Below are positions 1-54,454 of a stretch of DNA of 64,000 nucleotides, one piece after another; within the stretch, counting starts at the first letter, position 1, and the number at the start of each line of letters is the position of its first letter. The notes under the pieces are model-generated. The model was not told where the DNA came from. It saw nothing but the letters and a program-made list of their open reading frames with translations, and did not search any database. The position numbers were made by a program, and so were the translations under genes. Source of the DNA: Chrysophaeum taylorii (Eukaryota; Sar; Pelagophyceae; Pelagomonadales; Pelagomonadaceae); the NCBI GenBank assembly GCA_029834535.1, contig JAQMWT010000439.1:1-64000 (forward strand), read 5' to 3'.

Positions 1-800
1 CGGAGGCGATGAAACCGATGGCAGACTCAACTTCAAAGTTAAAGTGGTGCATGTACGGCGGGAAGGCAATGAGTTGAATGCCCTTATCGACGCGGTACGG
101 GGAGGTAATGTGCTGGCTAAAGTAAGGCTTGAATGCATCGGAGTAGAGGGTGCGCATGTGCACATTGAGTTGTGTACGACAGAAGTCATACACAAAATCC
201 AGAGCTTGAGTGAACTCCGTGGCGTTGGTGGTGCGTGTAAAGTACACCAAGAGAAATTTCGAAATGAGTTCCTTGAAGACGATGATATGTGTGAAGCCTC
301 CCATTCGGATGGGATGGTCACATAGCCGCCGTCGCACGCCCAGACTTCACCGGCTTTGTGGGTTTGCTCAAAAGAAGGCTTGGTCGCATTGAAATGCTTG
401 TGCGGGTGGCGCTTGTTGTGTGCGATGCAGTCGGTGCATAAGTCGCGATATGGTATGTCAGAAGCAGAGAATCCAGGGCGAGCAAGTACGTTGGGGGCCT
501 TGGCAGCGACGTTGTCGGGGCAGTGATGCACCCGGTGAAAGCGATTAGCACGTTCTTTGGCATTGAGATATTCGGTGGATCCGTGTGCGAGGGACTTACG
601 AGGAATTGGATGAGCGGGAATGTGCCGTTTGCGCCGAACATCGAACTTGAGTTCGGTGTCTAAGGCAGGGGAAGGCGGTGCGTCGTCATCCTGGTGCACA
701 GCAGGGTCACTTGGAGGTGCATCCTCATTATCACGAGTAGCGAGAGTATCTTCGTAGGACGACGATATATAGTTTAACGACATTTCGGTCAAGCAGTTGC
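1..800 (-). mobile_element. Element A: integrase N-terminal region (partial at edge)
   Basis: The minus-strand translation shows a zinc-binding HHCC-type region, with a C-T-D-C pair followed by a His-rich stretch, and then the first catalytic Asp in W-A-C-D-G-G-Y-V. Element B has the closely similar W-A-C-D-G-G-Y-V-Y-V. This identifies a copia-type integrase. The remaining catalytic residues run towards the left edge. It is part of a broken retroelement. Confidence 0.8.
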
Positions 801-939
801 TGGAAATAGACATCATAAAAGATTGTGCCAAAGACAAGGTATCTGTGCTGCACGTGGTGGAGGCTTGGTCAACGGTCATGAAATTGGATACATAGGATTT
901 CGTCATTGTTGGAAGGTAGGGTCCAACATAAGGGATTTA

Positions 940-2650
940 ACGGCGACGATGAGCGAAAGGTGCTTGTACAGAGTGCTGTACGTACCGGCAGGCAGAGCAT
1001 TGCTGAGCATGTCACAGCAAAGGTCATGGCGTAGAGACAAGAGGAAAGATTCCTGTTGTTTGGTGTGGTTGTTAGCACGAATCAACTCCGGTCGAGTGGG
1101 GTAGCGTAATTTCCCGTTGCGAGGGTCGAGTAAAATAATATTGGCATACCCTCGGACGGTTGGCAATGGAGCAAGCATTGAGTGGATTTTAGAGCCGAGT
1201 TTGCGGTCACTTCCACGAAGGTACCCTATATAGCGACTATGAGATAGGTGATGATCTTCCAGAGCAAAAAGAGAATCCTTGTAATCGAAAGAGTTGTCGG
1301 TGGCCTTGTAGGTAAGGCAGCCAGGCATCACGAGAGCGCATCTGGACACGAGGTTTTGTATGGCGGTGCCATAGGTGGTAGCGGAGCCAACTTGGGGAAG
1401 GGCTTGGACTATCCACAAGTAACCCATAAACGGCTCCAGATATATGGACCTGTCCCGGTCGCGGGGGATGTCGGAAGCAGTGAACGTATACGTGCTCCCA
1501 AAGGCGTTGATGGGCATGATATTTGGTGGTGGCGTTCTCTATGGTGAGGTTGCCGTCGGAATGGTGGCCACCAGTTAAGAAGTAGGAGTTGTGTGATGTT
1601 GATGAGGTTGTAAGTAATAACCTGTGTGACGGTTGGTTAGTTTCGAAAACGGTTATGTAATAGGACACAGGAGTGGGTGAGTTAGTATGTAAGCTTGCAA
1701 ACACGTTATAGAGGATTGTAAAAATCTTGACGTGTATAGGATGTGTTGCATTGGGTAATGGCTCCATAGAGGAGCGTTTAAAGCACAACTGATGGTAAGT
1801 ACACTCGGATTGAACAGAGTGAGTACGTTGCTCGTGAGCCTGTTGTGAGTGAAGGCGAAGTAGTAACATATTGAGGGATTCAAGGTCAGCCATAGTAAGC
1901 TGAGCAGAACCTGTGCGAGAGTAAGGTGCAAACGTTTTAGGAACGGATATATATGGAGGATCGGGGAACAACGGATCCAGTCTTTGGATATGTGGTTAGG
2001 TAGCCAAAGGCGCTTGGGAATAGCTTGTAGATCATCCACGATCTTTAGGAAGGGGCGTGGATGGAGGATGGGCCACGATGATAGTTTAATTGGTCCAGTA
2101 GAATATCTGCGTGCGATGCATATCCACCTTTCTCTAGATTGGTAGTCGCCACATAGGTAGGTCGGGAACCTATCAACAACATCGACACAGTAATCAAGGG
2201 TAGTATAGATAAGGTTGGCCACTGTGATGTGGTCTTGATGACAGTACTTATGCGGAGGCGTCATCTCAGCCAGTAGTACCAAGGGCTGGAGTAGCTTGAT
2301 GACAGACAGCATGCTGTCGAAAAGAGAATCGTCCAGCAGGCTGTGTAAGTCTTCTGACTTTTGTTGTTTTAGTAAATTCCTGTTTGTGCAGGGAGGAGTG
2401 ATCTCAATTATATCACAATAGAATGTGCGCCTTTCCTCTGGTGAGATTAGGTGAAGATGGTTAATAAAGGCGGGAGAGATTCAAATAATAGTACAGTAGG
2501 AAAACGGTGGCGTAACATACGAACAAGCGTATCATCAGACTCAACAACAACTTTTACATTGATATTTAAGCCTAAGTCATTAGTGGCTTGAGACAGGAAC
2601 GCCGGAGTTGACAAACCAGAACAAAGTAACATGACAGAGGGTTTGCGGAG
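940..2650 (-). mobile_element. Element A: C5 cytosine DNA methyltransferase-like domain
   Basis: Read on the minus strand from about 2.63 kb to 0.95 kb, the conserved C5-MTase motifs appear in order. There is a motif I-like L-L-C-S-G-L-S-T-P-A-F-L, an acidic motif II (V-V-E-S-D-D), and motif IV I-T-P-P-C-T-N-R-N, whose Pro-Cys would hold the catalytic cysteine. Motif VI follows as L-L-A-E-M-T-P-P, then motif VIII Y-Q-S-R-E-R-W, a Pro-Thr/Arg-Gly target-recognition-like stretch, and motif X S-N-A-L-P. Known C5-MTases transfer methyl from S-adenosylmethionine to cytosine. That the retroelement used it on its own DNA is inference. It is part of a broken element, and element C carries the same domain. 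Confidence 0.75.
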
Positions 2651-2689
2651 ATTGGACTCTTGTGAGAGAAAAACTGGCCGTGCGAGTAG

Positions 2690-5598
2690 TCAACTTAATG
2701 GCTGCGTATTTTGCTGAACAAATTTGTTCTGTTTCCGAAGATTGAGAACCAAAGGGCGAATCCACGGTCGATCTGGTAAAACTCGTTGGAGTAGGTAATT
2801 GTAGTATGCCAGTAGATCCCTGTTTTCATGGTATCGCTTGAGGGGAAATGCAAGGGAGCGAAGTTCCAGCCGCTTGTCGCGCGCGATGTTGTAAGTGATA
2901 CAAGGGAGAGCGGGTAAATTAGCTGCTACATAGTGTATGGGTATACGTACATCTTTGTCTATGCGGCTCGTGACAGCGCTGAGCTTTGGCTCAGCTCGAT
3001 CGTTGAACACGGTGGTAAGATTGGTCTGGTTCCATTCGAGCATGCTCAGGATAGCGAGATGTCGGTCATGCACTGGTTGAAGACATAAAGCGAAGTCGAT
3101 CTTAACGTAGCCAACTTGTGGATGATCTGGTAGGGGAATAACGATGTTGCGTGTTAACATCATGTGTGATGCCCGTTGTTGTCCTGTTGCCGTCTGAATA
3201 ACAATCGGAGCGTACTTAGAGTCCAATGGTATTATATGATTGGGTATAGCGAAATCGTAGGTGGACATCAATGAGATGGTAGCACAAGAGTCAAAATATA
3301 GGAAAGAGCAATGTGGAGGGACACTGTTTACCTTCATGTAGTTGGTGAGGAAGGCGCTTTCCGAATGTGGGCAAGTAGTGGAGAGGCTGGCTGTAAAGAA
3401 GTTCTTCAGCAATAACAGATTCGTTGGAATAATGATCGGTTGAACAGGTGGTGATGGTTCGTCAGCCTCATCAGCCATGCCGTGCTTTTCGTCAAATGAC
3501 GATAGAGAAATATGATCGGCATCCCTTTTGGTTTCGGCTTGTGATGGTAGGTTGAGGGCAGATTGGACCTGTGAAGATAGCGAGGACAATAATGCTGGTG
3601 GTAAAGCCGAGATGGCGGAAGCGGTAAAGAGGTTAGACACAGTATTGGAAGGATTACCCTGTGTGTTTGTAGTAGGAGGAGTTGTTGTTGGGGTGGGAGC
3701 AGTAACGACAGTATGGTGTTGTGGCTCCACGTAGTTTAACGACTTTTCGGTCGAGGATAGATGAACGTCTACATCATAAATGATGTCTTCTGCAAACATG
3801 AGCTGTTCGTTTAGACGAAGTAAACTACTGTTGTCCTCAGTAGATGTTGTTGACAGGATATCGGCTGATTGTAGCAAGGTCTCAAATAACTTGTTGATAT
3901 TCTGTTGTAGCTGAGCCGTGGTATCATTATCTGTCACATGCTTCGTGAGTTCGCTACACTGTTCTCGCAGGGTGTTTAAGGTGTGGTTTGTTCGATCTAA
4001 TAATTTCATGTTAGACCGAGAGGACCTGTCAAAAGTGCGGGGGTAAATTGGACGGTCATGGGACTGTCCGGCAGTTTTCTTGGTGACGTAAGAATCACCA
4101 GGACGATAATACGATAAATCGCTGCGAGAGAAAGGCTGGCGAGCATCATTAGAGTTACGCAAGCGTCTAGCATTAAACGTGGAAGATGTACCAGGTTGGG
4201 ACGAAGTGATGAAGGCGAGTGTGTTAGCAGTTTGAGTCAGACTTTTGTCCGATGAGTCCAAAGTATGTGTAAGTAGTAACTTTGGCTTTGGTTGAGATGA
4301 TAAACCTTCGACATAGGGTTGCCAAGAAACAGGGCGTTCTAAGCGTCTTTTGTTCGACCCATTTGATACGACATTGTAAAGGTCTAATGCGTATTCTAAA
4401 ATGTAGCTTGGGTTGGTAGGGTGACACAATCGTTCAGCTTCTGGCACAGGTCGAGATGAAGATCGGGTTTCGTACATATAACACCAATCTACCCAACCAC
4501 GATCGTAACGGTTGTTGCTGGTATTATCGGCATAATGCCGATGTATCTCTTCATAGATTTTTCTGCAAAGAGTGCCAAAGTCGAATTGAAGGTCAGTCTC
4601 TTCCTGGTTAAGTTGGTAAGAGATTTGCCTAAATGCTAGGACAGCTTCGATAAATACATGGACATACCAGTTAGGATTATAAACAACAGAGTTAAATTGC
4701 TGTTTCAAATAAGACACATCAGTAGTCGTAACAGACTCGTAGTGACTAAAGGCGATGAGCATAATAGCTCGAGCCTTGTTGGGTAAATAGCTTTTGTTGT
4801 ATATCTCATTGATGGCGGGCCAGGCCGCAAGTGCCGGTTTTCCAACACTTTCAAGATTGAAGTAAGTATGCAAGAATGTAGCGTACGTGTTCTGGTAAGT
4901 GTGCCAGTCAGCTGCAGTTAACGAAAACATGGTAACCGGGGCACGAACACGAGTGTCGAAAGCTAGTGCCTTCGGGTGCGCGCGATTTAAGATTCGTTCC
5001 TCTTCTAAGAAACGAGCGTTGATTTCAGGACGTAATGCCTTGACTTCATAGTCGTAACAGACGGTAGTTAGCTGAGCTACTTCTGCATCAGGTAAGTGGG
5101 GGAAAGCTTCGTTGGTGAAATGCCATTCCTGATACTCATTGGAAACTCATCAACAGCTAAACGGAGATCAGCAGCCCTATCGGTCTTCCATTCCAGGAAA
5201 ACGCGATCGAGAATTTGATTCCGGAGGATTTCGTAGTCCTTGCATGACCGAGTATATGCTTCATACGAGTCGTACTCGAGGAAAGCATCGGCATGACTGG
5301 ACCGTAGTAATTGCTTGATATGCTTGATTTGCAAGGATACCTTGCGGTTCTGAAGCTGAAAGCGGTTGCCCTCATTAAGAAACTCAACTACAGGAGCTTC
5401 GAGCTTCAATATATCCGCACCTGTGATCGCCTTAGGTGCGGCTCGTGCTGCGTGTTCTGCCATAGCAGTTGACGGGGAACCGGTGGGTTCAGTCACGCAG
5501 TTGACACTGTCTAGACATTCTAAGGGGGTCTGCCTATCGGTGTCTATGTACACTCGTCGATTTTCGATGGAAAATGTGTCTATATGACGACTGTGCAA
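2690..5598 (-). mobile_element. Element A: gag and aspartic-protease-like region
   Basis: The long minus-strand coding region is gag-like. It has a helical N-terminal half whose sequence is recognisably shared with element C (D-S-Y-E-A-Y-T-R; F-N-L-E-S then K-P-A-L-A), followed by a low-complexity Ser/Thr-rich linker. Near 3.2-3.3 kb comes a D-S-C-A-T-I-type motif in an aspartic-protease-like setting, and then the methyltransferase. Gag builds the intracellular particle and the protease matures it. It belongs to a broken retroelement. Confidence 0.75.
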
Positions 5599-5969
5599 GC
5601 TGTGAGTCCAGAGTAGTGTCGCTAAGCGTAGTCACTCAGGCAGCTGGTTAGTTTTGGTGCTCTCAAGGAGCTTGTTAAGTGCATTGCCATGGAATGTACG
5701 AGTGGACGTACCCAAAATATTCCATAACATGTGTGCAAGAGTACAGGTTAGCCAATTACACACACATCAACATTGACATGACAATACGATGCTATGAACA
5801 GGTGCACACAAGGTTACACGATCACGTGTGCAAAAAGATATTATATACAGCCCAATGGTAATGGCGATATATTGACAAGCGTGTCACATGTCGAGGCTGA
5901 GCTGGCGCGGTAACAGCCCAATACCCATAGGTTACGTGCATGTTGACACATGGTTTCTCAGGGACCCGC

Positions 5970-5983
5970 CTGGGCCCATAACC
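5970..5983 (-). promoter_or_regulatory. Element A primer-binding site (initiator tRNA-Met anticodon arm)
   Basis: The plus strand reads CTGGGCCCATAACC, the anticodon arm of eukaryotic initiator tRNA-Met. It sits directly inside the 5' LTR, so in element orientation the primer site pairs with the middle of the tRNA and not its 3' end. Drosophila copia is known to prime this way with a half-tRNA. Confidence 0.85.
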
Positions 5984-6295
5984 TGCAGAGCATTTAGCAA
6001 GCAGTGGTAAGTCACCTGGGAAACCATCCCGTCTCATCGTGTACGTCTGGAAGGTTAATTCGGGGAATGAAGGTTATGTTCCCTATATCCTCAGAACACG
6101 ACAGGCGGCATCTAGAACTACACGAGAAAGGTTAAGTGTATAGTGCTACATACCTCGGGACGCGCTAGACCATGATGATGAGCGTAGGCACAAATCAGAG
6201 GACTATTTGATTGTGTAGAAAGGAAGAAGAAGGGTAAGGAAGAGATCACGTTCTCAACGGACGGATAAGGGTAAGAGGCAGCAGATTTCTCTGCA
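5984..6295 (-). repeat. Element A 5' LTR
   Basis: This 312-bp segment is bounded by the inverted ends TGCAGAG and CTCTGCA and lies immediately outside the primer-binding site. Its right end is followed at once by the interior of element B. No partner LTR is in the window, so it cannot be dated by LTR divergence. Confidence 0.75.
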
Positions 6296-6349
6296 AATCC
6301 TGCCTCTAACCACGAACTTCCATCTTTTCATCTCGATTCAGTAGCTCAT

Positions 6350-7480
6350 GTCTTCCTCTCTAACACCTCCTCCGCAGATATATCATCTCCTACTAAAGAA
6401 AAGCACATTCCTCTTACAACGCCAAGACAGCTCCATGAGAAGCATGCGCCCTTCGATAAGAAAGTTCATGCCAGAGGCACCCTTGCATTTCGAGATGCGC
6501 AACAACGAGCCATCAATTTTCACAACATCCACCATTCTAGTGATTCTCAAGCTATAAATGCTGTTCAGGTTATTGCCAGTCCTGGACACCACCCATCTGA
6601 CGTACCCTACCGTAAGTTCTGTGTGGATTGTACGATTCATAAAAAACGCTTTCCTCATCCACATCACCTTACCAAGCAACCATCATTCGAAAAAGTTTTT
6701 CAACCTGGTGAAGCCTGGGCATGTGACGGTGGTTACGTATATGTGCTCTCGGAATGGGGATCCTTTCGACATATCATTGTTTTCAAGTGCCTCATTTCTA
6801 AATTTCTGTTAGTGTACTTTTGTCGTAGCACTAACTCCAGCGAATTTTGTAACGCCCTTGAGTTTGTCCGCAATTTTTGCTCTACTTATGTGCATGTACA
6901 ACTAAAACAAATCTATTGTGATTCCTTTAAACCCTATTTATCTCAGCATGTTACAACCCCCTTTCGTGTGGAACATGGTATTAACATGTCCGCGTTCCCC
7001 CCTTACTTACATGTCTTTAATCATGAAGTAGAAGCCGCTGTTGGTCACATAGCCACTGCCGCGTCTACACGACTCCGGCATATGCCTAATGTATCCTATA
7101 AAGGTCACCCCCTAACAGATCCGGAAACACACTACCCGTGGGCTGTTATACATGCTGTCCAATCGTATAATCTCCCTCCTAACGTTTCTCTCGAACGTAT
7201 TTATAATAAAGTCCTAAGCCCCCAACAAGTTTTGTTAGACCAATGTAATGTTCCCCAACAGGACTACCTCAAACCTTTTGGTTCTGTTTGTTATCTGCAA
7301 TTGGAACCTAACGAATTTCATAAATATGAACCCCGATGTCGTCCCTACATCTACTTATGTGGTGCTAACGTTATAAACCCTTTAATAACACCCCATGTTA
7401 ATCATTTAGCCGATGTTGTCCTTAATCCCGAGAATGGTCAAGTCCGTGTTTCCTCTAAACTGACTTTTCCTCATCTTATC
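6350..7480 (+). mobile_element. Element B: integrase region
   Basis: The region opens with a pre-integrase segment alignable to element A and a zinc-binding-type Cys pair (C-V-D-C) with flanking His residues. The catalytic core follows, with A-W-A-C-D-G-G-Y at its start and a downstream acidic residue in the context H-E-V-E-A-A-V-G. The family inserts element cDNA into the host genome. The region runs directly into the SINE-like insertion. Confidence 0.8.
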
Positions 7481-7481
7481 T

Positions 7482-7732
7482 GGGCCGGTTGGCAGCCAGA
7501 ACGTTCGCAGTGGGACGGGGTATGGCCGGGGGGCGCAGACGGAAGGTTATCGACGAGTTGGTTGTCAGTCACATCGCGGTCTCCTCGCCGCATGGCGACA
7601 AGCTTGATGGTCATTCTCCGCCGACCGTCCTTTCGGCGCTCCTCGTCTACAGGCCCGTGATTCCGGACTGGCTCCTGTCGGTCCGGCCTGGCTCCCATGC
7701 TCGGGAGAGGTCTGAAGTTAGTTAGTTAGTTA
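7482..7732 (+). mobile_element. SINE-like repeat with (GTTA)n tail, copy 1
   Basis: About 250 bp, nearly identical to 18.5-18.75 kb. It begins GGGCCGGTTGGCAGCC and ends in a hairpin-forming CTCCC-ATGCTC-GGGAG, then GAGGTCTGAAG and a (GTTA)4 tail. It lies inside element B, so it is younger than B. No clean target-site duplication was seen. The conserved 3' hairpin and simple tail are typical of retroposons mobilised by a LINE. It could be a SINE or the 3' end of a LINE. Both long copies stay open in a short frame, but I recognise no protein in it. Confidence 0.75.
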
Positions 7733-8699
7733 TTTCTAAATCTCCTCCTGATTATGAACAGCATCCACCTCCCGCACCTTCACCCGACATTCCCTTCTCT
7801 GTTCACAGCACCCCCAATGATGCGGCGCAGAGGGGGAATGCTATGCCTACCGACACTGACCATGAGAGGGGGGCTTCTTCTTCTCATTTCCATGCTCCCT
7901 CTCCCGCTCCCGCATGTGCTCCAGCTGCTTCTGCACCCGCTACTTCCGCCACCACACCTACATCTGACGTGTCTTCCAACACTTTGCCACTTTTACCATC
8001 TTATCGGTCTCTCTATTCCCAGGATGTCCTACGTCTCACCCGTGGTCCTCATCACCCTCAGCCTCGTCGCAAAACCAATCTCAAGGATGTTCTTACTCGT
8101 ATTGCCTCGCCTACTGTTGCCGCTTATAAACAAGCCGGTGGTACGCTTGCCGACTTCAAGTATGACCTCTCCAAGCAGTACATAACCTTCTGCGACCCCA
8201 CCCTCCACTCCCTTCATCTTGCTCATGGCATCCACTGGACGGCTATACCTCCAGAGGGGGAATTTACACCATCCCTTCATCACCATGTGCACCAAGCGAT
8301 CTCACAGTCCTCTTCAGTTATGTGTCATAGGAGCCATAGCCACCCATCGCCTGATGCTCCTCATGTTCACTTCTGCGACGACACCAACCTTGCAGACTTT
8401 CACCTCCCTCAAGCTCTCGTTCATTTAATTTCTGAACATGCTCACGCCTTTCAAGTTCCTCCCGCTCAATATGTTTATGCTTTGTTCACGCCCCACTCCA
8501 TTTTGGATCATAATGACGCTTCTTATGGTGCCTCCGAGCCTCACCTCTCCGCCATCGAAGACTGTATCACCGTGCAATCGCATTACATTGAGGCCCACCT
8601 TGGTGATGCTCCTCTACTAGTTGTTCAACTCGTCGAAGATCCCGATCACGCTCATCTGCACGATAATGTCGCTTCTTACGCAATTACTCATCTGACGAC

Positions 8700-10551
8700 G
8701 ACTCATGACCCCAGCACGGTTGGTTCGGACGAATACAAGATTCAAGCCAAAGATATCAAAATTGATGAATATGAGTTGAACTGCCTCAAAGGTCTCTCAG
8801 ACGCTGATCGCAAAGCTTATGTTGCTGCCATCTCCAAAGAGATTTTTGACATTGTTAAGTTTGGCTGCTTTAAACTAGCGCTGCCAATGGCCAACTCAAA
8901 GCCTATTGACACCCGCCTCGTCCTACGTATAAAAACCAACGCTGCTCGTCAGTACATTAAACATAAAGCACGCTTGGTCCTACGAGGATTCTTAGCCTCT
9001 GGGCACCGATTTCTTCAACACATTCAGCCCTATGGCACAGCTTACCGGCATCCGTTGTGTTTTGGCGCTAGCAGCTCATCTGCGACTTCCCGTCTACCAT
9101 GTCGACGTCCCTAACGCTTTTGTTCAAGCTCCCATCGATTCTCATGTCTATGTCAAACTGCCACAAGGCATTTACCTTCTCGATCCCGAAGATACTAAAT
9201 ACCAAGGCCGCCGTCTCCCAAAGCTACTTAAATCTCTATGGATTGCGTCAGAGCCCTGCCCTTTGGAATCAAACCATAAACGGCTTCTTTGATTCATTAG
9301 GCTATACACGATTTCGAACAGACACATGCATTTACGCTAAAGTCCAAGCTGACGCTACATTTCTAATTTGCACGCTCTCAGTAGACGACGTCGTCATTAC
9401 TTGCACTTCGGAAACTCTACGTCGTGAGTTCCAGCAAGCCCTGAAAAAGGAATACTCAGTCGACACCTTCGAGGAAGTCCATACTCTCCTAGGCATGCGC
9501 ATAACGCGTACAACTGATGGTTCTATATCACTGGACTGTCAGGCTAAACTTGATGCATTGTTCGAAGAGTACCCCATTTTAATGCAGTTACGTCCCACTT
9601 CCACACCGATGTCACCATCAACCACGTATAAAACTGGAGAGCCATCTTCTGATATGGACAAGTTCATCCTTCACACCTTCTCTACTCTACTCGGCAAGCT
9701 CACGTTTGTCCAATTGGCCTGTCGCCCGATCTATCACAAAGTCTTAGTCGTTGCTCTCGAGGAATGCATAATCCAGCATTTCTACATGTTCAAGTACTAA
9801 CAGGAACGCTCCGCTACTTGCGCAAGCCCGAAAATCGTAATCTTCGCCTCTGGTACTACTCTGGTTCTTCCGCTCTAATGGACCATCTTCGACTTCTTAT
9901 CGGTAATCGTACTGACATGGCCACCATGTTGGATTACACTAAAGAACAAGTTAATTCAGGTAATTTTGATCCACTGGTCGCGTTCGTTGATGCCGATAAT
10001 GCACCCTCTTATGAACAAGACCGCAAATCTACAACCGGTTACGCTATCTTTTTTTGGTTCTCTCATCACTTGGAAGTCTAAGTTGCAGCCTATTACAGCT
10101 ACTTCTACGCATGAGTGAACTTATCGCCCTTAATATGTGTGCCGATGATGTGGTCTGGTTACGCAAATTGTTAACGGAAATGGCATTCGCTATAAATCCT
10201 CACTTCTATCTCCGCCAACCTTCAGGGAAAGACTTGCTACTAGATTATGATGCTCACGACAATCCCCTCCCATCGGACATGTCGTTCATACGTAACAGTC
10301 CTATACTTGGAGACTCTGCCTCTGCTATTCATCTTTCCAATAATCCCGACAGTGCGACTAAGGCCAAAGCTATCAGCACACGCTGGTTCCGTATTCGCGA
10401 CTACGTACAGTTAAAACGTATACGTCTACATCATGTTTCCGGTACCCAAAATATCGCCGATGGATTTACTAAACCCTTTGGAGCTCCGCTCTTCAGCAGA
10501 TTTCGCACGTTACTCGGCTTACAACAACCCATAGCTCAACAAGATGGTTAA
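8700..10551 (+). mobile_element. Element B: reverse transcriptase and RNase H region
   Basis: Clear copia-type signatures run in order: A-R-L-V-L-R-G-F, then Y-H-V-D-V-P-N-A-F-V-Q-A-P, K-L-P-Q-G-I-Y, G-L-R-Q-S-P-A-L-W, the S-V-D-D catalytic box, and L-L-G-M-R-I. RNase H shows F-V-D-A-D, D-R-K-S-T-T-G-Y and A-T-S-T-H-E. It ends with I-A-D-G-F-T-K-P, the usual copia finish. It copies element RNA to DNA and removes the RNA strand. It is part of a broken copy. Confidence 0.9.
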
Positions 10552-10778
10552 TCCTTACCCTTCATTATGTCCGAAATGACTTTAAACTAACCCTGCTATG
10601 CAAAGGAATACTGGCTCGCTAAAATGTGAAATGCAATGAAAGATGTGATGTGGATATTCTTTTTACGATGAATCCCACAAAAACAAAGATGCTGCGAGCC
10701 GACGCCACTCCACCCCGAACCGTGGTCGTGGTGGTGCACCGTCACTATCCCCACCTTTTAATGCTCTAACTCCAAGCG

Positions 10779-12676
10779 TTGCACCGACTAGTTCCCCTAA
10801 TCGGAAGCATCAAACCTATTTGTCGGTGGCTCAAGGACATCAATCTACGCCCGTTACGCCTAAGGCACCCAAGGCAACTGTCCAACAACCGTCTAAATCG
10901 CAACCATCAAAGTCTGAGTATTTCCTGCTTAAACATTGCAAATTTGACGCACTTGCGATGATGTCAGGGAACACATCCGCCCTTGGTGCATCCCCGCCGA
11001 ACTTCCTCATCCCTCAGCATAAGAATCCTCAGTGTTGGCTTAAGTCTGTGCAGCAGCTGCTTACCGAAGCACAACAGACAGACTTTGTGGACGACATCCA
11101 ATATCTTAGTTCATTGCTGTGCGTCAAAGCAAAGCGCATTCGGAATGCCCCCGCTATATCTCCTAATGAAGGTATTCGCTTTCACCGCTTTCCACCCATA
11201 AAAGGGGTTGTCAAAGTACATGTGGCGTGTACAAAGTGCTATAATAAAACTGAGACGCCGGGCACACCCCTCGTGCTCATCATCTGTACTGAAGATGAGC
11301 TTAAAACTGACAGGACTCGCCAAATTATTGAGGATCATCTCGCGTCTGAGCAACATGCATCGCACTGCTTCGATGTACCGCGCCCTTTCTTTTTGTTGAT
11401 TCGTGTGGTGTGTAACTTGTCGAACCACGGGATAGCGTTAATTCGCAACAACCAGCACCCCTTCCAACTCTCTTGATATAATGATCCAGCTGCCCACATA
11501 AGAGCTATAATCCTCCGCCTTGGAAAGTCCATTGCTATTAACAAGCTGCTCAAAGAGGCAATCATGCAGACTGCAACATCCCGTAACGTTGATGCTTCTA
11601 AAATTCTCGTCAACCCTGACGCTAACACCATGCTCTTACTGCAGCTGCCCTTCATTTCGAGTGTAAATCTTGAGATTCTTGTAGCAGCTTGGTCTTTGTT
11701 ACAATCTGTGGAAGATAAAACCTGCGTAGTTACCAATCCTGAGGAGTTACTTAACGTGCTCATCGAACGCTTTGTTAACGATGTTTCTCATCAACTTGAC
11801 GCAACTTCTTCCGAGACGGTACCGCCAATGCTACACTACTTTTGCCAACTTCCACCTAATCAACAACTAGCATTTAAAAACGTGTTAATCCAAGTTGGCT
11901 ACCCATCCCATATCATTGATACCTTTAATAATAATACCCCTTCTGAAGATGTGTCACCAGCGCCGATCGATAATCCACCCGCTGAGCCCACGCCAGATAA
12001 AGCTAACGACAATATGGCTGAATCCTTACACCAATTAAAAGAAGAGATTCGGTCTTTATCTCTACGTCTCACTAACACCGAACAGCAATTGATGGCACGA
12101 GAACATCAACTATCGCTTGCTCTAACTTCTCTCACACAGATGCAAGAAACCTACGAAACTCTTAATACCCAAGTGACCGAGAACATCAAACATGTTTCCT
12201 TGTTAGATAACATTTTGTCAAGTCTTCAAATGCATCAGAACACCATAATCCCGACCTCTGCTGTATTTGTCCATATCATTTCTCGGTCGCTTATCTCGTC
12301 TATTGGACAGCTCCCTCCAGATACGTATAATGAGGCACAGCGAGTTCTAATCGACGCAGCAGCTCATCACCTCCACACAGCTATGTCTGATGCACATGAT
12401 CGTGTTATTCCTGCATTGGATCTACACGCTCTTACACCAGATGCTGCTATGTCTTTCCTTTCGTCTGTCATGTCACCCTTGGTCACCTTGAGTGATGCAA
12501 TGACTACGCACAATACCAACACTGCTAACGACCTATCCTCTGATGATCATAATTCGTCTTCTCCAGAGTTAAAGGAACTGGACGATAATAGCGAGGGTGA
12601 ATTGGACCACACATCTGATGTTGTGGATACCGATACAGCTTCTTTGCGCAACATCACAACACGCTCGACATCATAA
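10779..12676 (+). mobile_element. Element B: extra reading frame downstream of RNase H, function unknown
   Basis: Between RNase H and the 3' LTR lies about 1.9 kb of further coding sequence. The second and larger open stretch (11,564-12,676) is rich in Gln, Thr and Leu, with a probable coiled coil around its middle (L-H-Q-L-K-E-E-I-R-S-L-S) and an acidic Ser/Asp-rich tail. I recognise no domain. The position is where some LTR elements carry an envelope or accessory gene, but I see no signal peptide or membrane segment, so an envelope is not supported. A transferred host gene or an accessory protein are alternatives. Confidence 0.6.
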
Positions 12677-12795
12677 TTAATTTGTCCTGTTCTGTTGTTG
12701 TTTGTTCCACTGTTCACTGTTCTCATGTATATTGCACAAGTTCCGCTTCAAGAACGTCTGAAATGCATAAACCGTTTTCACACGTTGAGGGGGTC

Positions 12796-13195
12796 CAGAG
12801 AGCTACACTATTATGTGTGCGACACTGGAACATTTCACACCTATCTCTACACGAGGGTTTTCTCTCCGTAATACGGCTTTCCCTCGTTCCTCCTGTCCTT
12901 CCTTACCCTTCCGCAATTATTTATTCATGACTATGAAGAACCCAGTCTGAAGCTCTTTTCCAACATGGAGTAGGCCTCCAGGTGCGTACCGTCAGGTACG
13001 GGGTTTTCTGTTTAATTAACAGAGGCTTCGTTCCTCGTTGTCAGTGTAAACGCTTCTATGGGACCTAATGTCCTTAAGGAGTTAGGGCTTAAATCCCTAC
13101 CTTGTGTAGTAGCATGTGACAAGCGGAATGGTCTGTACACGCCTAAGACTGCACACAGTCTCTACCATGTACCCGGAGAGGGTCAAATCTCTCCA
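12796..13195 (+). repeat. Element B 3' LTR with preceding polypurine tract
   Basis: A 400-bp block repeated in inverted orientation at 16,895-17,290, about 95% identical by eye. It follows the purine run TTGAGGGGG (12,787-12,795), the expected plus-strand primer. It runs from TCCAGAGAG to CTCTCCA. Its right end is followed at once by the methyltransferase sequence of element C. Confidence 0.85.
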
Positions 13196-13643
13196 CATAC
13201 GATGCGGAGTGTGGTGGTGTCATTTCCTCGAAAAGAACAAGCGGCTTTAAAAGCTCAAGTACACTTAGAGCACTTGGAAACAAGGAATCGTCCATATCAC
13301 GCTCGAAGGTGGAAATGGATCTCCCATAGACTATGTTGCGATTTGTGCATGGTGATGTCAGTTCCACTATATCGGTGTAATATCGTGCACGTTCAGCGTC
13401 CGATGCTCGATGGAGATATGTCAGAAACTTGGGTAGGGATGGGAAAACTTCGATGGAAGTACCAAAACGTCTTCGCAGCATGTGCGTGAGATTGTCGTCG
13501 CTCTCAACAAGAACTTTAACGTTTATGTTGATTTGCAAGTCATTAGAAGCGCAAGCCAAGAAGGCAGGAGTGGACATCCCAGAGCAAAGTAGAGTTACAG
13601 TAGGTGTTCGTGAGCTAGAAGACGTAGTTACTGTGTGAAGCAA
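13196..13643 (-). mobile_element. Element C: first half of the C5-methyltransferase-like domain
   Basis: On the minus strand the segment shows the motif I-like L-L-C-S-G-M-S-T-P-A-F-L, motif II V-L-V-E-S-D-D, motif IV L-T-S-P-C-T-N-R-N and motif VI L-F-E-E-M-T-P-P-H. Each aligns one-to-one with element A, although the LTRs differ. The domain was therefore present in the common ancestor of the two families and is not a chance fusion in one copy. Confidence 0.75.
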
Positions 13644-13661
13644 ACGTGTGGTAACCTTGCG

Positions 13662-16404
13662 TCATACGGGAGGTGGGAAATGCTTGCGTATGTAAGGCAA
13701 CTGCGAATGCGTTGACTCCAAGATGGTTTTGAGCCATGGGACGTAAATTACGCGTTCCATGAGGGTGGAATATAGTTTAAGCATTTCGCGTTGTTCATTA
13801 AAAGTACATAGTCTGAACTGTAGTAAGCGAAGTTCCATTTTACGCGCTTTTGCTTGTTGTAGCGAATAAATTGGTAGAGTAGGCAACAGGTTATTAAGCC
13901 TAAACAAAGTAATCTGACATTATCATCAATTTAACTCTGGATAGATGATTGTCCTTTAAATTCAACTCCATAAAGATGTATACCAAGTTTATCTTCTCTC
14001 ATTGAGTCATGCTGATGATGTGCAGATCGGGATCGTTATCGTCGTTTTGCTTGGGTAGAAAAAGCGCAACGTCTAGCTTTACATATCCCACATTTGGATG
14101 CTTTGGGAGAGCGGGAATGACAGTCCTTATAATCATAGCATGTGTGATACTCTGCGTATCCGTAGCAGTCTGGATAGCAGGTGATAAGGACTCGGGTAGC
14201 TTTGCGGTGTGGATAGGATCAGCGCAACGTTTAAAGTTAATTACATGTTGAGAAGCACATGTGTCAGCATATCCTGGCGTAGTCATTAGCGGCAAATTGT
14301 ACTCGTTGTACAGTTTAAGCATTGTTGCATAACAGGCATGTGTTGAGCTTTGACCAAACACGTACTGTGTCATGAAACTTTGCGTTTGTTCGGAAGGCAC
14401 AACGACGAGTGTAAAACCAATGTTTAATTTTGGTAGCAATACAGGGGGATCTGTGCCATCTTCATTATCTTCGTTGGGTAGATTATTGGGGAGCTCAGAG
14501 TGCGAGGAAGTTAGTTTCCTGAGCTTGACGACGAACGATAGCATTCTGAGCTTTAGCGTTTATGTGCTGCAATAGCGGCTGAGGGATGTTATCGATTTCA
14601 TCATCTTTAATGGACAGAAAAGTGTGGAACATTTTCTCTGTATCAGCAGTCCCCCGCTGCTCCGCATCACTGGGGGACGCTTCAGGAGCAGATGTTTCAG
14701 CTTGATACTTTTCTTCTGAAGCATGAGATTCCTTATCGGCTTCTAAGAGGATTGCTATGGTATTGGACATAGTATCAACTCGAGATAAGTACAGATAAAC
14801 TTGGGTGGCTTCATCAGGATCTAAGGACTGTGTCGAAGCTTGAGAAGCGGTTGTCCAGAGGGTACTCAGTAAGCTTTTCATTTCCTCCTGTACCACTTTA
14901 GAGTCGTTAGAGGGGTTGGGATTCGCTTCCTGTAGTTTGCCAAACAGGTGGCGAAGACGATCAACTTGAAAAGTAGCCCGGTCCATAAGAGACATATTAG
15001 AGCGTGCATTACGGTTAGAAGAGTGTGAGTAGACAGGACGATCGAAGCTGGTACCTTTGACGTTATAATTTGAAGGTGGACGATAGTACGACGTGTCACG
15101 AGGCGAAATTGTCGATGCTTTATCTTTTGCATTATGAAGCTTACGAGCGTTGAAGCCAGACTGTCCAGCCACAGTAGCTAACAACGAGTAAGCATTGTTT
15201 AGAGAGTCGAGGGATTGATGAATAGTATCCATCAATAATACCTTAGGTGGCTTGGTAGCGGTAGTACCAGGGATGTAAGGATCCATGAAGCGGGTTTATC
15301 CAAGCGTCAGTTAGAGGAAAACTTTGTTTCATTGTACACCTTTAACAGGAACTCCAATAACGGACGAACGTCGTTAGGATCAGCTAGCTTTAACAATTCC
15401 GGATCGTGAGTCGAGTTGTTCCCAGAGCGTGTCTTGTAGAGTTTACACCATTCCAATAAAGATTGAGAATAGCGCTCGTGATCCGAGGGATTAGCATATA
15501 GACGATAGATCTCCTCGTGAGCTTTGAGAGTGATTATGGAATCATTAAATTGGATTGATGCGTCATCATTATTTAAATGCTTTACCGGAGATTGGAAAGC
15601 AAGGAGTTGTTCGACAAATACATGGGCATACCAATTAACATTTAAAGACATTCGATTAAACTGAGATTTAAGCTCAGTGACATCTGTACAAGACACTGTC
15701 TCATAGTAATGGTAAGCTAAAAGCATTACTGCACGTAGTTTATTAGGATGTGCAGTAAGTGCATATATCTTCTTTAATTGAGGCCACATAGCGAGTGCGG
15801 GTTTTTCTTGTGATTCCAGATTAAAGAATGTGTACACGAAACCAGCATAAGTTTCGCAGTGTTTGATCCAGTCGGCATTAGAGAGACCTGTAAAGGATAT
15901 GTTAGTTAGAGATGAATCATACACAATTGATTTAGGGAGTCGGGTGTCTAATAGATTGAGGACACGTTTAACATCCTCACTTAATTCGGGACGAACGAGA
16001 TTATAGGACTCTTGGTAATAAAGTCGTTCGAGATTGTTACGGACATCAACTGATAGTTGATGTGATGAATTGACGTGCCAAGTTTTAAGATGATCAGGCA
16101 AGGCATCTTCATCAGGTAAGTGTAAATCATTTACTTGTTCAGCTTTCCATTGAGCAAAGATGATATCTACTTCTGGTTCAAGAAGTTGGTTATACTCCGG
16201 AGCATTCCGGGTGTAAGCTTCATATGAATCGAAGCAGAATAACGCGTCCGCGTATGGACTTGTCATATGCCTGCGAAGCACCTCAATTTGCAAGCTCACC
16301 TTGGTTGAGTTGTCTTGGAAACGCAATCCTGCGTTGATTGTATCAACGAGGATTTGTTCTTGTTTGTAGATATCCGTAGTGGATATTGGTTTTTGTTTTG
16401 ACAT
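13662..16404 (-). mobile_element. Element C: gag and aspartic-protease-like region
   Basis: The gag-like N-terminal coding stretch begins at 16,404 and shares its sequence pattern with element A (D-S-Y-E-A-Y-T-R, F-N-L-E-S, Y-E-T-V-S-C-T-D-V). A Ser/Asn-rich linker follows, and then a D-T-C-A-S-Q-H-V protease-like motif near 14.25 kb. Its role is as in A. It is part of a broken element. Confidence 0.75.
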
Positions 16405-16880
16405 GGTTGTGACCTATTAAAGAATAGGTTATAGGATTGATAGACATATTCGACACATAAGAATGAAGGGTTTCTCGAGTGCGGGTCATATGTACAGTAC
16501 GCTATTTTATTTTAAGCGTGGGCTTATTTACAAGACCAAACAAATCAACATGCTATTTAAAAACAGGATGACTTGAGACTGAAGAATGGATTAATTCTCG
16601 AGCAGACAGTCTTTTGTTGGGGAATAGGAGGAAAAACCCGTACAAGTTTCCGCGGCTTGTGTAGGAAAAATTTTAATTTTATTGGTTATGCGAGTGCATA
16701 TGACCAGTGACCGACCCAACTCGGTCACAAACCAAATTAACTGGTGGGCACATACCGTCACACAACAAATATGTACAGTAGACCACCGCCAAACACATTG
16801 TCGCATTGTACTCGTGATCAGGCGTAAATTGATCACTCCATTTATACGTACAACACAGTTGGGCTGACACACCTACGCAT

Positions 16881-16894
16881 CTGGGCCCATAACC
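16881..16894 (-). promoter_or_regulatory. Element C primer-binding site (initiator tRNA-Met anticodon arm)
   Basis: The plus strand again reads CTGGGCCCATAACC, immediately inside the LTR end. It matches the A site perfectly although the LTRs differ, which shows a conserved half-tRNA priming mode. Confidence 0.85.
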
Positions 16895-17290
16895 TGGAGA
16901 GATTTGACCCTCTCCGGGTACATGGTAGAGACTGCGTGCAGTCTTAGGCGTGTACAGACCATTCCGCTTGTCACATGCTACTACACAAGGTAGGGATTTA
17001 AGCCCTAACTCCTTAAGGACATTAGGTCCCATAGAAGCGTTTACACTGACAACGAGGAACGAAGTCTCTGTTAATTAAACAGACAACCCCGTACCTGACG
17101 GTACGCACCTGGAGGCCTACTCCATGTTGGAAAAGAGCTTTAGACTGGGTTCTTCAGAGTCGTGAAAATGTATAATTGCGGAAGGGTAAGGAAGGGAAGA
17201 GGGAAAGCCGTATTACGGAGAGAAAAACCTCTTGTAGAGATAGGTGTGAAATGTTCCAGTGTCGCACACATAATAGTGTAGCTCTCTGGA
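16895..17290 (-). repeat. Element C 5' LTR
   Basis: A 396-bp inverted copy of 12,796-13,195, starting TGGAGAG next to the primer site. The few differences from the B LTR include single-base changes and one short indel. The outer end abuts unique host-type sequence, so 17,290/17,291 is the right border of the whole nest. Confidence 0.85.
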
Positions 17291-18483
17291 GGAAATTGAT
17301 GGGGGTGATGCGAAGAGTGCAGCGATGGGAATCTCGTTGAATCCCTGTTTTCGGCTACCCCCTTCGCGCGACTCTCATTCGCGCGCACCATCATCCGTAT
17401 TGCGTGTCGTGGCACTCTTGTCAGCCGAGAGCCCCAACCTCAGTAATGAACCCGCGTTGGTCGACCAATTAATCCTCTATTTGGGTGTCGCACGCGCATT
17501 GCTGTTCAGCTAAAGCTCTCCGACGCGCGGGCGAGATTGTCCTCGAAAGTTTTTTTTTCGCCATTTTCGAAAACTCCGCGGGCTGCGCGTGTCTAGTGCC
17601 TACTCGCCTTGAATCCTCCTGTTATTGTCGCTCGTCGCCTCCGACCATTTGACGTGGCAGTGGCCGTCGCGGCACTTGAGAACCTGCCGTGCGCGACAAG
17701 GCGGCGGCGGTGGTGGCTTTCGGTGAGGCCGCGGGCCTGGCACGCGTGGGGCGCGCCCAAGATCTGCCCCACTGGCCTTTGGCAAAAAGAAGTTTACGGC
17801 AGCAAAATTATCGACACCGCCAATGAGCGCGCTAGTGCGCCAGAGGAGGCTCTCGCGATCCGCGTTCGAGGCGGGCGACAGAACTTCATCGAGGCAACCA
17901 ATGAGTTGACACGCCTTGTGGCGACATGAAGAGAGGAGTTCCGGAGCCGGCATGCACTTCGTCAAGCTACGGCGGACCAAGCACCACTCTGAGGCGCAAA
18001 AGTGCAGCGCCAGCCGGCCCAGGGACAGTCGCCACTGGGCCCGTCGCGAACGGCGACGGTCGTTTTCGTGAATTTGGCGCGACAAACGTCTAGGCGGCGT
18101 CGGTACTCTGGGCCCATTTGGTCAACGTTATTGTTGTTGGTGCTGTTGTTGTTTGACCTCCGCCTTAACTAATTGCCATTTTGCTTCTGCTATGATTCAC
18201 GGCGCTCGACGACGTCGTTTAGACTATGCATCGTCAGGTTTTGACAATCATCGGCCTACTGCGACACCGCCGCACCTACGGCTTCATGAGTCCTACTGTT
18301 CTCCAATCACATGTAGCAGGAAGTTTTGATAGAAGCGGCCGTAAAACGAGGTGAGGAATGAGGCAACAAGCGAATCGGGATGGAAACGGAAACGGACTAG
18401 CGGCCCTTGTATGATCAGCTTGATTTTTTTTTGCAGAACCCCGGCTCTACTGGACCGTGGTTTATCCATACGAGTTCAGGCAC
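17291..18483. other. Gene-poor stretch with no recognised gene
   Basis: GC rises back to host level. Short open frames exist on both strands: minus 17,600-18,085 (161 codons, basic and Pro-rich) and plus 17,609-17,929. I recognise no family, and the two overlap each other, so neither is called. A run of TTG/GTT triplets occurs near 18,130-18,160. Confidence 0.5.
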
Positions 18484-22584: not shown

Positions 22585-25500
22585 ATGGAGGCAGCGGCGC
22601 GCAAGGTGCCTCGCGGGCAGGGTCGGTTGGAGTTCAAGGTGTACGCGCCGTTGAACTTCGGCGAGACCCTCCGCGTGTGCGGATCGACGCTGGTGCTGGG
22701 GTCGATGGACCACGCCAAGGGGGTGGAGCTGTACACGAGTTCGTCGACGTTTCCGGTGTGGACGACTCGCGAGGCGGTGGCCGTGTTTGCGGAGGAGAAA
22801 ATCGAGTATCGGTACGCGGTGTACTGCGCGGGGACGTTCGCGCGGTGGGAGGACGTCGTCGATGGGGAGGAGCACCGGAACGCGACGGTGCGTCCCGACG
22901 AGGCGCAGCCAGAGGCTGGCGCGACGGTCGTCTTGGCCGATCGGTTGATGACGTCTGGATTGTTGGCGTGGACGGAGGAGGACGCCGCCGATCTCGCCGC
23001 CGCCGACACGTCGGTGCAGGCTGTCGCGGCGGCGTCGGTGGACGTCGAGGCGCGGCTGGCGTCCGATCCAGAGTATCGACCAGAAATGCCGGCGGTCGCG
23101 GAAGTCGCGCCGTCGGGGTCGTTGGACGTTGGGGGGGTGCGGTTTTTGACGGTGCGCGACCGGGTGGCGGAAAGCGCGGCGCAGGAGGCGGCTGCTGTGC
23201 GGCGGCACGAGGAGGCGCGGCGGGCCGAGGAGCAGCAGGAGCGGAGGCGTCAGGTGCGCGTGTCGACGACCCCGGCGCCGGGGTTGTTGAACCTCAAGGG
23301 GTTTTTGGAGGAGCCGCGGGCGCCCCCGCCCCCGCACATGCCGCGGTCCCCGAGGTCGGCGGCGCGGCAGACGGCCGCGAGCGCTGCGCTCCAGGCGTTC
23401 CTCGCCGAGGAAGCGCCGCCGAGCGAGGCGGGCGAGCGCGAGCGCGCTCCACCGCTCGACTCGTCGGACGGGATCGTGCTGGTGTCTTTGTTTCTGCCCG
23501 TGTTGATCCGGCGCAAGCGGCATCCCGACAAGGCGTCCTGCGAGTGGAAGATCGAGTGGGATTTGGAAAATTTGCTGTCGCTCCAGGCGCCGCTGCGAGT
23601 GACGCGGGTCGGGGTCGCGCGAGTGCCCGACGACGCGACGGCCGAAGACAAGCAGAGACTCGCGGCGACGCTGCGGCGCGCGCCGTGGTCGTGCATCGCA
23701 ATATTCCTCGACCGCGACACGTACGACCTGTACTACCACGTGTTTTGCAAGGGCGTATTGTGGCCCGTCTTCCACAACTCGCTCGAGGTGTACGGCGAGA
23801 AGGCGACGCCTTCGCTCGAGTTCGACGACGCGCCGTTCGGGACCGACGACGGCGACGGCGTCCGCGGCGACCGCGAGTCGAGCTGCGACTACGAATACGC
23901 GGAGAGCCTGGCCATGGGTGACTCGTACCAGTCGAAAGCCGACATCAAGACGGAGCACTTCCTCGCGGCCGTCGAGTCGGTGAAGAAGCTCGACGCGGCC
24001 GTCAAGCGCGACCAGAGCGCGACCAACTTCTCCGAGCTCGACGAGGACGAGGCGGCGACCGTCCACGCGGCGGCCGGAACAGTTCCGGCGACGCCCGAGT
24101 CGCCGCCGGCGACTCCGTCCTCGGTGGCGGCGGTACCCCACAAGCGACTCACGCGCACTGAGCGCGCGTGGCGCGCGTACAAGCGCGTCAACCAAATCTT
24201 CCGCGAGCACGTCGTCGAGGCGTACAACGAGGGCGACCTCGTATGGATCCACGGGTTTCAGCTCGCGCTGCTGCCGGCCTTCGTGAGTCGGCGGCTGACG
24301 GTGGCCAAGCTGGGTCTCTTCATGCACACTCCCTTTCCCTCTTCGGAGATTTTCCGGACCCTCTCGATGCGGTCCGAGCTGCTTCGGGGCATCCTGAGCG
24401 CCGACCAGGTGGGCTTTCACATGTACGAGTACGCGCGCCACTTCCTCACGACGTGTCGGCGGCTCCTGGGGGCGCGGTACGACTTCGACGCGCGCGGACC
24501 CGTCATTACGGTCGACGGTCGGGACGTCGTCATCGCCTGCATCCACGCCGGGGTCGAGCCGGCCGACCTTGCCGACGTCGCGTCCACGCCGGCGGGCGTC
24601 CGCGCCGTCGACCGCCTGCGCCGCGAGCTCCGGCTCGACGACGACGACAACCCTACCACTTTCTCGGCCGACGACGTCTCGGGCACGCAGCACACCCGGA
24701 TCATCGCTGGGATCGACAAGCTCGAGAGGCTCCGAGGATTGCCGTTGAAGCTCCTCGCGTACGAGCGCTTCTTGGACGCGCGCCGCGCGCGCCGCGCCAA
24801 GGGCGAGGAAGCAGCCAAGGGCGAGGAAGCAGCCAAGGGCGAGGAAGCAGCCAAGGGCGAGGAAGCAGCCAAGGGCGAGGAAGCAGCCAAGGACGAGGAA
24901 GAAGCCAAGGGCGAGGAAGCAGCCAAGGGCGAGGAAGCAGCCAAGGGCGAGGAAGAAGCCAAGGGCGAGGAAGAAGCCAAGGGCGAGGAAAAAGCCAAGG
25001 GCGAGGAAAAAGCCAAGGAAAAAGCCGAGGAAGAAGCCGAGGCGGCGGCAACAAAGAGCATGCCGGGCGACGAGGTCCGGATCGTGTTGGTCCAGTACGT
25101 GTTGTCGTCGTTCGAGCGCAACGAGGATTGCGAGCGGACGCGGCGCGACTCGCGGTTCCTGGTGGACCGGATCCGAGAGAAGCACGGCGAGGACGCGATC
25201 GTCTGGAAGGAGATGGGCGAGCTGAAGATCGTGGACCGGCTCGCTTTGTTGAAGGTCGCCGACGTGTTCTGGGTGTCGTCGGTGCGCGACGGGCTGAACC
25301 GGTGGCCGCTCGAGTACGTGGCGATGCAGTCGGACGTGTTGCTCGGGACCGAGCGGCACGCGGCTGCGCTCGCGCGCACGCCCATCGGCAATTTCGGCGC
25401 CGACCGCGAAATGCCCGGTCCCGCCGTCGCGCCATATTTCGACGACGTGATCGAGCGCATGATGGGGGCCTGCGGAGGCTCGGGCTACCCGTGCGAAGAC

Positions 25501-27844: not shown

Positions 27845-28240
27845 CGCGACCGACGTCGTCGAGCGAACTGACTCGAGCGAGACGACGACGACGCGAGCGA
27901 CTTGTTTTTTTTTTCTTTCTTTCTCTCTCTCTCTCTCTAGGAGGAATCTCGATCGATACACCGGCGGCGATGCTTCGCTCCGTTTCTACGAGTATAGACA
28001 GAAAGAACGATCGCTCCGTTTCTACGAGTATAGACAGAAAGAACGGACAAAGGCGCGCGTTCTCTCCGTCGCGGCGGCGGCGGCGGCGGAATGTATTCGG
28101 CTGGCGCGCACCTCTCTCGACTTGATTAATATTCGCGTCGCACAGTAATAATTATTTAATTTGCGGCCGCACATCGTTGCATCGTATGTGTAGCAGCAGC
28201 ACCTAGGAGGAGTAGTAATAAATTACGAGAAATAAAGAAA
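27845..28240. other. Intergenic stretch with a 36-bp tandem duplication
   Basis: A pyrimidine-rich CT run at 27,920-27,940 is followed by two near-identical 36-bp units (27,976-28,045; core CTACGAGTATAGACAGAAAG). No gene is seen. It holds the 3' end of the trehalose-type gene and the 5' region of the cyclase-family gene. Confidence 0.6.
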
Positions 28241-54337: not shown

Positions 54338-54454
54338 CGTGATTATTATCCAACGGACTGACTGACTATAAAGGAGGGGGTTTTTGAACCTACCTCTTTT
54401 ATAAAAAAAAAAAGAAACAAACAAACAACCGTTAGTTCGTTCGTAGGGCGCGAG

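Follow-up and report, generated by a model that had tools for sequence, protein, structure and literature searches.

Copia retrotransposons with a putative C5 cytosine methyltransferase domain in the pelagophyte Chrysophaeum taylorii

A decayed Copia retrotransposon copy lies on the minus strand at positions 1-5631 of the DNA analyzed here, the first 64 kb of contig C439 of Chrysophaeum taylorii (the window), and its remnants carry the motifs of a C5 cytosine DNA methyltransferase (C5-MTase) between protease and integrase. A search of the genome (70.8 Mb in 697 contigs; 71 Mbp and 702 contigs in the main text of the genome paper, PMC10366177) shows, at the level of sequence, that this MTase-bearing order is common to three Copia families, which we call A, B, and C, and to hundreds of copies. 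The predicted polyprotein runs gag, protease, C5-MTase, integrase, RT, and RNase H, the layout of a Ty1/Copia LTR retrotransposon. Taken whole, our reading is that the window holds a decayed copy of an element whose MTase would methylate new cDNA at a dose limited by an in-frame UGA; we consider this reading rather probable, and its activity part is the one that we infer.

The window copy belongs to family A and is truncated by the contig end at position 1 (Table 1). An earlier note, made from the letters of this DNA, had placed motifs I, II, IV, VI, VIII, and X in order on the minus strand between protease-like and integrase regions in a stramenopile-type host. All of these motifs were located, motif IX joins them as one absent from that list, and the host, a member of the Pelagophyceae, does belong to the Stramenopiles. 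The window copy is broken, since its MTase motifs sit in separate frames (the four ORFs that span 903-2689), and in one genome copy, L034 on contig C42, the stretch broken here is one open frame. A broken copy taken alone could look like a gene caught by chance beside, or inserted in, single element copies, an explanation to which we give next to no credence. Pieces of families A and C are each present in at least 150 genome copies (79-100% and 81-100% identity, respectively), and single ORFs span the domain junctions. Together with family B, these are the related copies for which the earlier note had suggested a genome search.

Table 1. Features of the Copia copies in the window
Feature	Position	Strand	Remarks
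Family A upstream gag piece, 184 aa	5077-5631	-	different frame; from ORF list
Family A gag-protease ORF, 818 aa	2690-5146	-	protease-like DSCATIS 3272-3295; terminates at in-frame TGA 2690-2692, then CTA
Family A MTase piece, motifs I and II	2447-2689	-	frame of gag-protease, immediately past UGA
Family A MTase piece, motifs IV (PPC), VI (EMTPP), and VIII (QSRERW)	1653-2480	-	shifted frame
Family A piece of long target-recognition region	1237-1995	-	third frame; ORF and homology to L034
Family A target-recognition end, motif IX (1071-1106), and motif X (984-1004)	903-1538	-	at least 150 genome copies
Family A linker, HHCC zinc binding, and integrase start (WACDGGY 322-342)	1-936	-	split over two frames; ends at contig end
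Protease-like FDSCATIS	3272-3295	-	family A copy
Motif I LLCSGLSTPAF	2597-2629	-	family A copy
Motif II VVVESDD	2531-2551	-	family A copy
Motif IV DIIEITPPC	2388-2414	-	family A copy
Motif VI AEMTPP	2253-2270	-	family A copy
Motif VIII DYQSRERW	2124-2147	-	family A copy
Motif IX RYPTRPELIRAN	1071-1106	-	family A copy
Motif X SNALPAG	984-1004	-	family A copy
Integrase HHCC pieces	511-543 and 427-444	-	family A copy
Integrase WACDGGY	322-342	-	family A copy
Family C MTase piece, motifs I, II, IV (SPC), and VI	13143-13661	-	one frame, after TGA; at least 150 genome copies
Family C gag-protease pieces	13999-16413	-	ORFs 13999-14559, 14495-15295, and 15307-16413; protease-like ADTCASQH 14245-14268
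Second family C copy, integrase (WACDGGY 6716-6736), RT (SVDD 9378-9401), and RNase H	6275-10551	+	opposite strand; broken frames

The polyprotein order can be read from intact frames. The family B copy L025 is a single 1,952-aa ORF with a protease-like LIDGGAS, PF00145 (1.1e-7; 32.1 bits, cut-off 22), rve (0.0061, short of its cut-off), and RVT_2 (E = 1.6e-38). In family C, a 1,081-aa ORF of L043 is common to MTase and integrase, and the integrase end, RT, and RNase H region of L009 lie within one 1,056 aa (RVT_2, 2.7e-43). With RVT_2 found downstream of the integrase in L025, L009, and the family A copy L010, the Copia type given in the earlier note is borne out. A full MTase in one frame is present in five loci that were read: L034 (A), L020, L025, and L030 (B), and L043 (C). 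A same-strand MTase piece lies upstream in at least 82 of the best 150 RVT_2 matches (56 family A, 26 family C); the other 68 have no nearby family A or C piece among those listed, which does not show that they are MTase-free Copia elements, because the comparison covered 150 listed pieces each of families A and C, each of which has at least that many copies, and none of family B. Among the 20 family B loci that were fetched, three have LTR pairs of ∼200 bp (L012, L025, and L026), with CTCAC at both outer LTR ends in L025 only, and a pattern search of the 20 located the RT motif in 8 copies, as SVDD in seven and as SVDG in the eighth (L025). We note a 607-bp direct repeat (98%) within the family B locus L019 (7622-8228 and 8437-9043, oriented coordinates). 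One candidate for a new family, L044 on contig C344, was rejected; over the stretch that was read, it belongs to family C and lacks the part with motifs I-VI.

The window contains relatives of its family A copy. A tblastn search with the L034 protein finds a second relative, 45% identical, at 13886-13209, which is family C, and no MTase match was found next to the second, plus-strand family C copy (Table 1). The truncated family C copy is flanked by an inverted repeat (12794-13195 and 16895-17290; 272 nt at 98% and 98 nt at 96%), which suggests LTR-like ends in inverted order; no LTR pair was seen within positions 1-18000. Two ORFs on the plus strand (275 and 399 aa; 10649-12676) are perhaps the gag of another element. 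Composition changes sharply along the window: the stretch of nested elements (1-17000) has 46% GC and a CpG observed/expected ratio of 0.90, as compared with 62% and 1.35 in the host part (18000-64000). The latter includes a 1,846-aa ORF with starch-binding, glycosyltransferase family 20, and trehalose-phosphatase domains (22585-28125), an Ndc80/HEC1 kinetochore protein (54455-56425, 1.1e-30) in antisense overlap with a long ORF containing a 2OG-Fe(II) oxygenase domain (53402-55363), and a Mg2+ transporter of the CorA type with EF-hand matches toward its N terminus (57059-58630).

The assignment of the domain differs in strength between the families. For family B, an element-borne, predicted C5-MTase is clear, with all 20 element copies examined over the PF00145 cut-off. 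The PF00145 search of the genome gave 57 matches, among them family B, and the 22 that we examined are these 20 copies and two single genes (L001 and L002). For families A and C, we hold a C5-MTase identity to be very probable on the basis of motif order, homology to family B, and a PDB profile test, the three lines through which the claim of the earlier note is supported. Motifs I, II, IV, VI, VIII, IX, and X occur in order in all three families with the catalytic Pro-Cys and the motif VI Glu; the columns that all five full domains share are G13, F19, E38, D81, P88-C89, E130, R176, E524, N553-A554, and P556. The usual C5-MTase forms are GxGG in motif I, ENV in motif VI, and QxR in motif VIII. 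Families A and C depart from them with EMT in motif VI and a motif I without GxGG, and family B has ISK where QxR would precede the final R of motif VIII. When residues were shuffled, the order and spacing of motifs IV, VI, and VIII recurred in 0 of 200,000 cases for L034 and 1 of 200,000 for L043, with a pattern that was drawn from the usual motif forms and set after seeing the sequence.

Profile searches are the place to weigh a competing explanation, in which A and C carry another Rossmann-like or unrelated domain, the C5-MTase is in B only, and the motif order in the window is coincidental. In its favor, PF00145 gives no match for L036 (A), the full L034 domain, or any family C sequence; a Pfam search with single-frame window pieces returns no PF00145; the family B model scores family A rows among shuffled decoys; and PDB profiles built from A and C only find no MTase (best SRP54, 0.67; uL16, 2). 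Four of the five family A N-halves do align with PF00145 in register (residues 37-184 on profile positions 28-163), at E of 0.13-0.18. The earlier note had named the lack of a significant PF00145 match as refuting its claim. Taken literally, this holds for the window pieces and for families A and C alone, and only family B, phrog_116, and the controls outweigh it. In the PHROG search, phrog_116 (DNA methyltransferase) is the sole entry matched, by 5 of 5 family A N-halves (E 0.0036-0.12) and by the full L043 domain of family C (9.5e-4), with no match for the L043 N-half or the window family C piece. TIGR00675 (dcm) matches three of the five full domains (best 2.5e-8), a set in which three rows are family B.

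Direct comparison of A and C with B argues further against an unrelated domain. Over the whole domain, the comparison gives z of 6.7 (A) and 6.9 (C), with 0 of 1000 shuffles reaching either score; the signal is strong in motifs IX-X (z 7.5 and 5.9), weak in the N-half alone (2.3 and 2.2), and low in the middle region (0.5 and 2.1). A PDB profile of seven B rows has 14 of 14 matches to C5-MTases, with a best E of 0.0077; when four A/C rows are added, 50 of 51 matches are C5-MTases and the best, to M.HhaI, reaches 6e-6. This roughly 1000-fold gain over B alone indicates that the A/C rows help. Four shuffled A/C rows in their place destroy the match (0 of 3 matches to an MTase), a control that was aligned by the aligner and in which the shuffled rows degrade the B columns too, such that it shows the harm done by unrelated rows. 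The profile of the five full domains (A1) also matches only C5-MTases (10 of 10), but at E of 0.018-2, and the family B full domains alone give one match (0.044). A profile-profile comparison of A+C with B places 463 columns in register (probability 3.9, E 0.011), but with too few sequences. Taken with the same polyprotein position in A, B, and C, these results make an unrelated domain in A and C very unlikely. Searches of a protein database returned 0 of 7,382 candidates for family B residues 300-720 and 0 of 6,712 for family C residues 1-1040 at E ≤ 0.001, none of 26 pattern matches in viral contigs was confirmed, and the AlphaFold model of the window family C piece (pLDDT 38.9) is useless.

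Sequence comparison shows purifying selection on the predicted MTase domain. Nei-Gojobori dN/dS, computed from in-frame copies only and hence biased toward conserved copies, has a median in the MTase N-half of 0.21 for family A (5 copies) and 0.16 for family B (13 copies). Values from family B HSPs are 0.12 for the protease (16 copies), 0.17 for the MTase N part (20), 0.24 for the target-recognition region (16), 0.22 for the MTase C part (15; ratio of sums 0.35), 0.19 for the integrase (12), and 0.23 for RT (8), so that the MTase is under about the same constraint as the parts on which transposition depends. These numbers bear on the proposal that the domain is a non-methylating DNA- or chromatin-reading module that steers integration, like the chromodomains of some Gypsy elements. 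Such a module would suit the position directly ahead of the integrase, the consensus departures in motifs I, VI, and VIII, and the long target-recognition region (∼260-295 residues; that of bacterial C5-MTases is much shorter). However, all 11 aligned rows, drawn from three families, keep the catalytic Pro-Cys and the Glu of motif VI, and purifying selection on the domain is comparable in strength to that on RT and integrase; we regard a pure reader as unlikely. Base composition fits past methylation of the elements: CpG observed/expected is 0.84-1.05 across 11 element loci (flanks included in some) versus 1.35 in the window at 18-64 kb, and TpG/CpA is raised (1.10-1.23 versus 0.84), a difference that is confounded by GC content and silent on which enzyme was responsible.

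A stop codon separates gag-protease from the MTase-pol part in families A and C. Of 11 distinct family A loci, 8 (window/L031, L032, L034, L035, L036, L037, L040, and L042) have TGA and then CTA in frame, with the TGA 21 codons upstream of motif I; L033, L038, and L039 are rearranged or frame-shifted at this site, and L041 has no motif I pattern match. A genome-wide search with the flanks of the window site (2679-2704) held fixed finds 91 sites, 89 of them with TGA and the others with TTA and GGA; the preceding codon varies, and with the flanks fixed the 89 count TGA and not CTA. Family C has TGA-CGC in 2 of 2. UGA then CUA is a known leaky stop context. We suggest that the conserved UGA-CUA of family A, and UGA-CGC in family C, is likely a programmed readthrough site, although reinitiation may operate instead. 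In the three family B copies shown (L017, L025, and L026), gag and pol instead overlap by 37 nt in the -1 frame, and no slippery heptamer of standard form was found at this overlap.

The mechanism that we favor would start at this codon. In families A and C, ribosomes would mostly halt at the UGA after the protease and occasionally read through; because most would stop, the MTase would be made only within the pol product, at a low level, and would be packaged together with RT and integrase. It would most likely methylate cytosines of the new double-stranded cDNA, before or at integration, and the methylated copy could then resemble host chromatin DNA or enter a state less harmful to the host. 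The step from domain to cDNA methylation leans by analogy on SymbioDIRS-Dnmt3, whose enzymes have CG-methylating activity in yeast (PMC5890265); in the same text, yeast tests of the LINE and Gypsy enzymes yielded no methylation, a result that its authors call inconclusive.

RNA is another conceivable substrate. Some C5-MTase families act on RNA, DNMT2 on tRNA, and the domain could similarly act on the element's own RNA, affecting packaging, stability, or priming. The MTase would be within a product packed with genomic RNA, and RNA methylation was proposed for LINE elements in the text of de Mendoza 2018 (PMC5890265). Three observations weigh against this, and we think it improbable: the motif IV contexts (TPPCTNRN and LPCQHLS) differ from that of host DNMT2 (SPPCQPHTRQ), the PDB matches are led by DNA enzymes (M.HhaI and DNMT1) with DNMT2 lowest (E 0.55), and pairwise comparison with host DNMT2 shows no significant similarity. 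Methylation of cDNA remains our preferred reading.

The origin of the domain was sought among the host genes. The only nonelement PF00145 matches among the 22 of 57 examined are DNMT2 (L001, contig C634; 100% identity to CTAYLR_008533 across 360 aa) and a large gene resembling DNMT5 (L002), a single gene that is part of a 2,086-aa frame and that we take for DNMT5 from its layout. In 12 pairwise comparisons of the element MTases with these two genes, the best p is 0.02, not significant after multiplicity, so we name no host donor. In PDB, the combined B and A/C profile matches bacterial enzymes and DNMT1 best; plant DRM2, which PMC5890265 relates to Dnmt3, lies lower, and no animal DNMT3 chain is among the 51. 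A single capture of the MTase before the three families split would be the simplest history, given the position and the motif IX-X-to-integrase stretch common to them. We also entertain, as a doubtful extension, that an entire pelagophyte Copia clade keeps an ancient MTase as standard equipment, with which each family would mark its own cDNA sequence-specifically, in a manner like restriction-modification, for self/non-self recognition or integration steering; the divergence of target-recognition regions between families, which would be almost beyond recognition, is part of this idea and shares its low standing.

DNA methylation normally silences transposons; elements that carry their own enzyme would reverse the usual roles. 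A self-encoded putative C5-MTase could let new Copia copies mark their own DNA, the conserved UGA ahead of it suggests how enzyme dose may stay low, and hundreds of MTase-Copia copies in a 71-Mb algal genome make a small, laboratory-cultivated system for testing element self-marking. As far as the literature that we searched goes, a Copia clade with a divergent C5-MTase in a stramenopile is an undescribed version of a known phenomenon. No report on Copia or LTR elements with a methyltransferase in stramenopiles, pelagophytes, Aureococcus, or Chrysophaeum appeared in the titles and abstract starts of open-licence papers, and the main text of the genome paper (PMC10366177) has no "retrotransposon", "transpos", or "repeat". 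One sentence in Sarre et al. 2025 (PMC12344493) mentions streptophyte and dinoflagellate elements of the LTR Copia and DIRS types as having DNMT3; the mention of Copia may be a slip, since it cites the 2018 paper, whose text says Gypsy. The words "pelagophyte" and "Aureococcus" are absent from its main text.

The dinoflagellate and charophyte reports mentioned in the earlier note are real, although of other element classes: the 2018 text (PMC5890265) describes DNMT-bearing LINE and DIRS elements in Symbiodinium and Gypsy elements in Klebsormidium, and the Copia elements of Symbiodinium as without DNMT. In what that text relates, KnitGypsy-Dnmt3 of Klebsormidium nitens, intronless and with low Ka/Ks, resembles the Chrysophaeum elements in being a multicopy LTR element with a C5-MTase inside the pol polyprotein; it is a Gypsy element of a charophyte with an enzyme of the Dnmt3 clade, whereas those described here are Copia elements of a pelagophyte with a divergent MTase. 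SymbioDIRS-Dnmt3 and SymbioLINE-Dnmt, from the same source, are likewise retrotransposon C5-MTases in hundreds of copies, but in DIRS (tyrosine recombinase) and LINE elements as opposed to Copia. The CoDi elements of diatoms share the Copia class in stramenopile algae, and "methyltransferase" and "methylase" are absent from the main text of their paper (PMC2806351). The bacterial and phage C5-MTases (dcm, M.HhaI, and phrog_116) give the best profile matches and have motifs I-X, but are not part of a retroelement.
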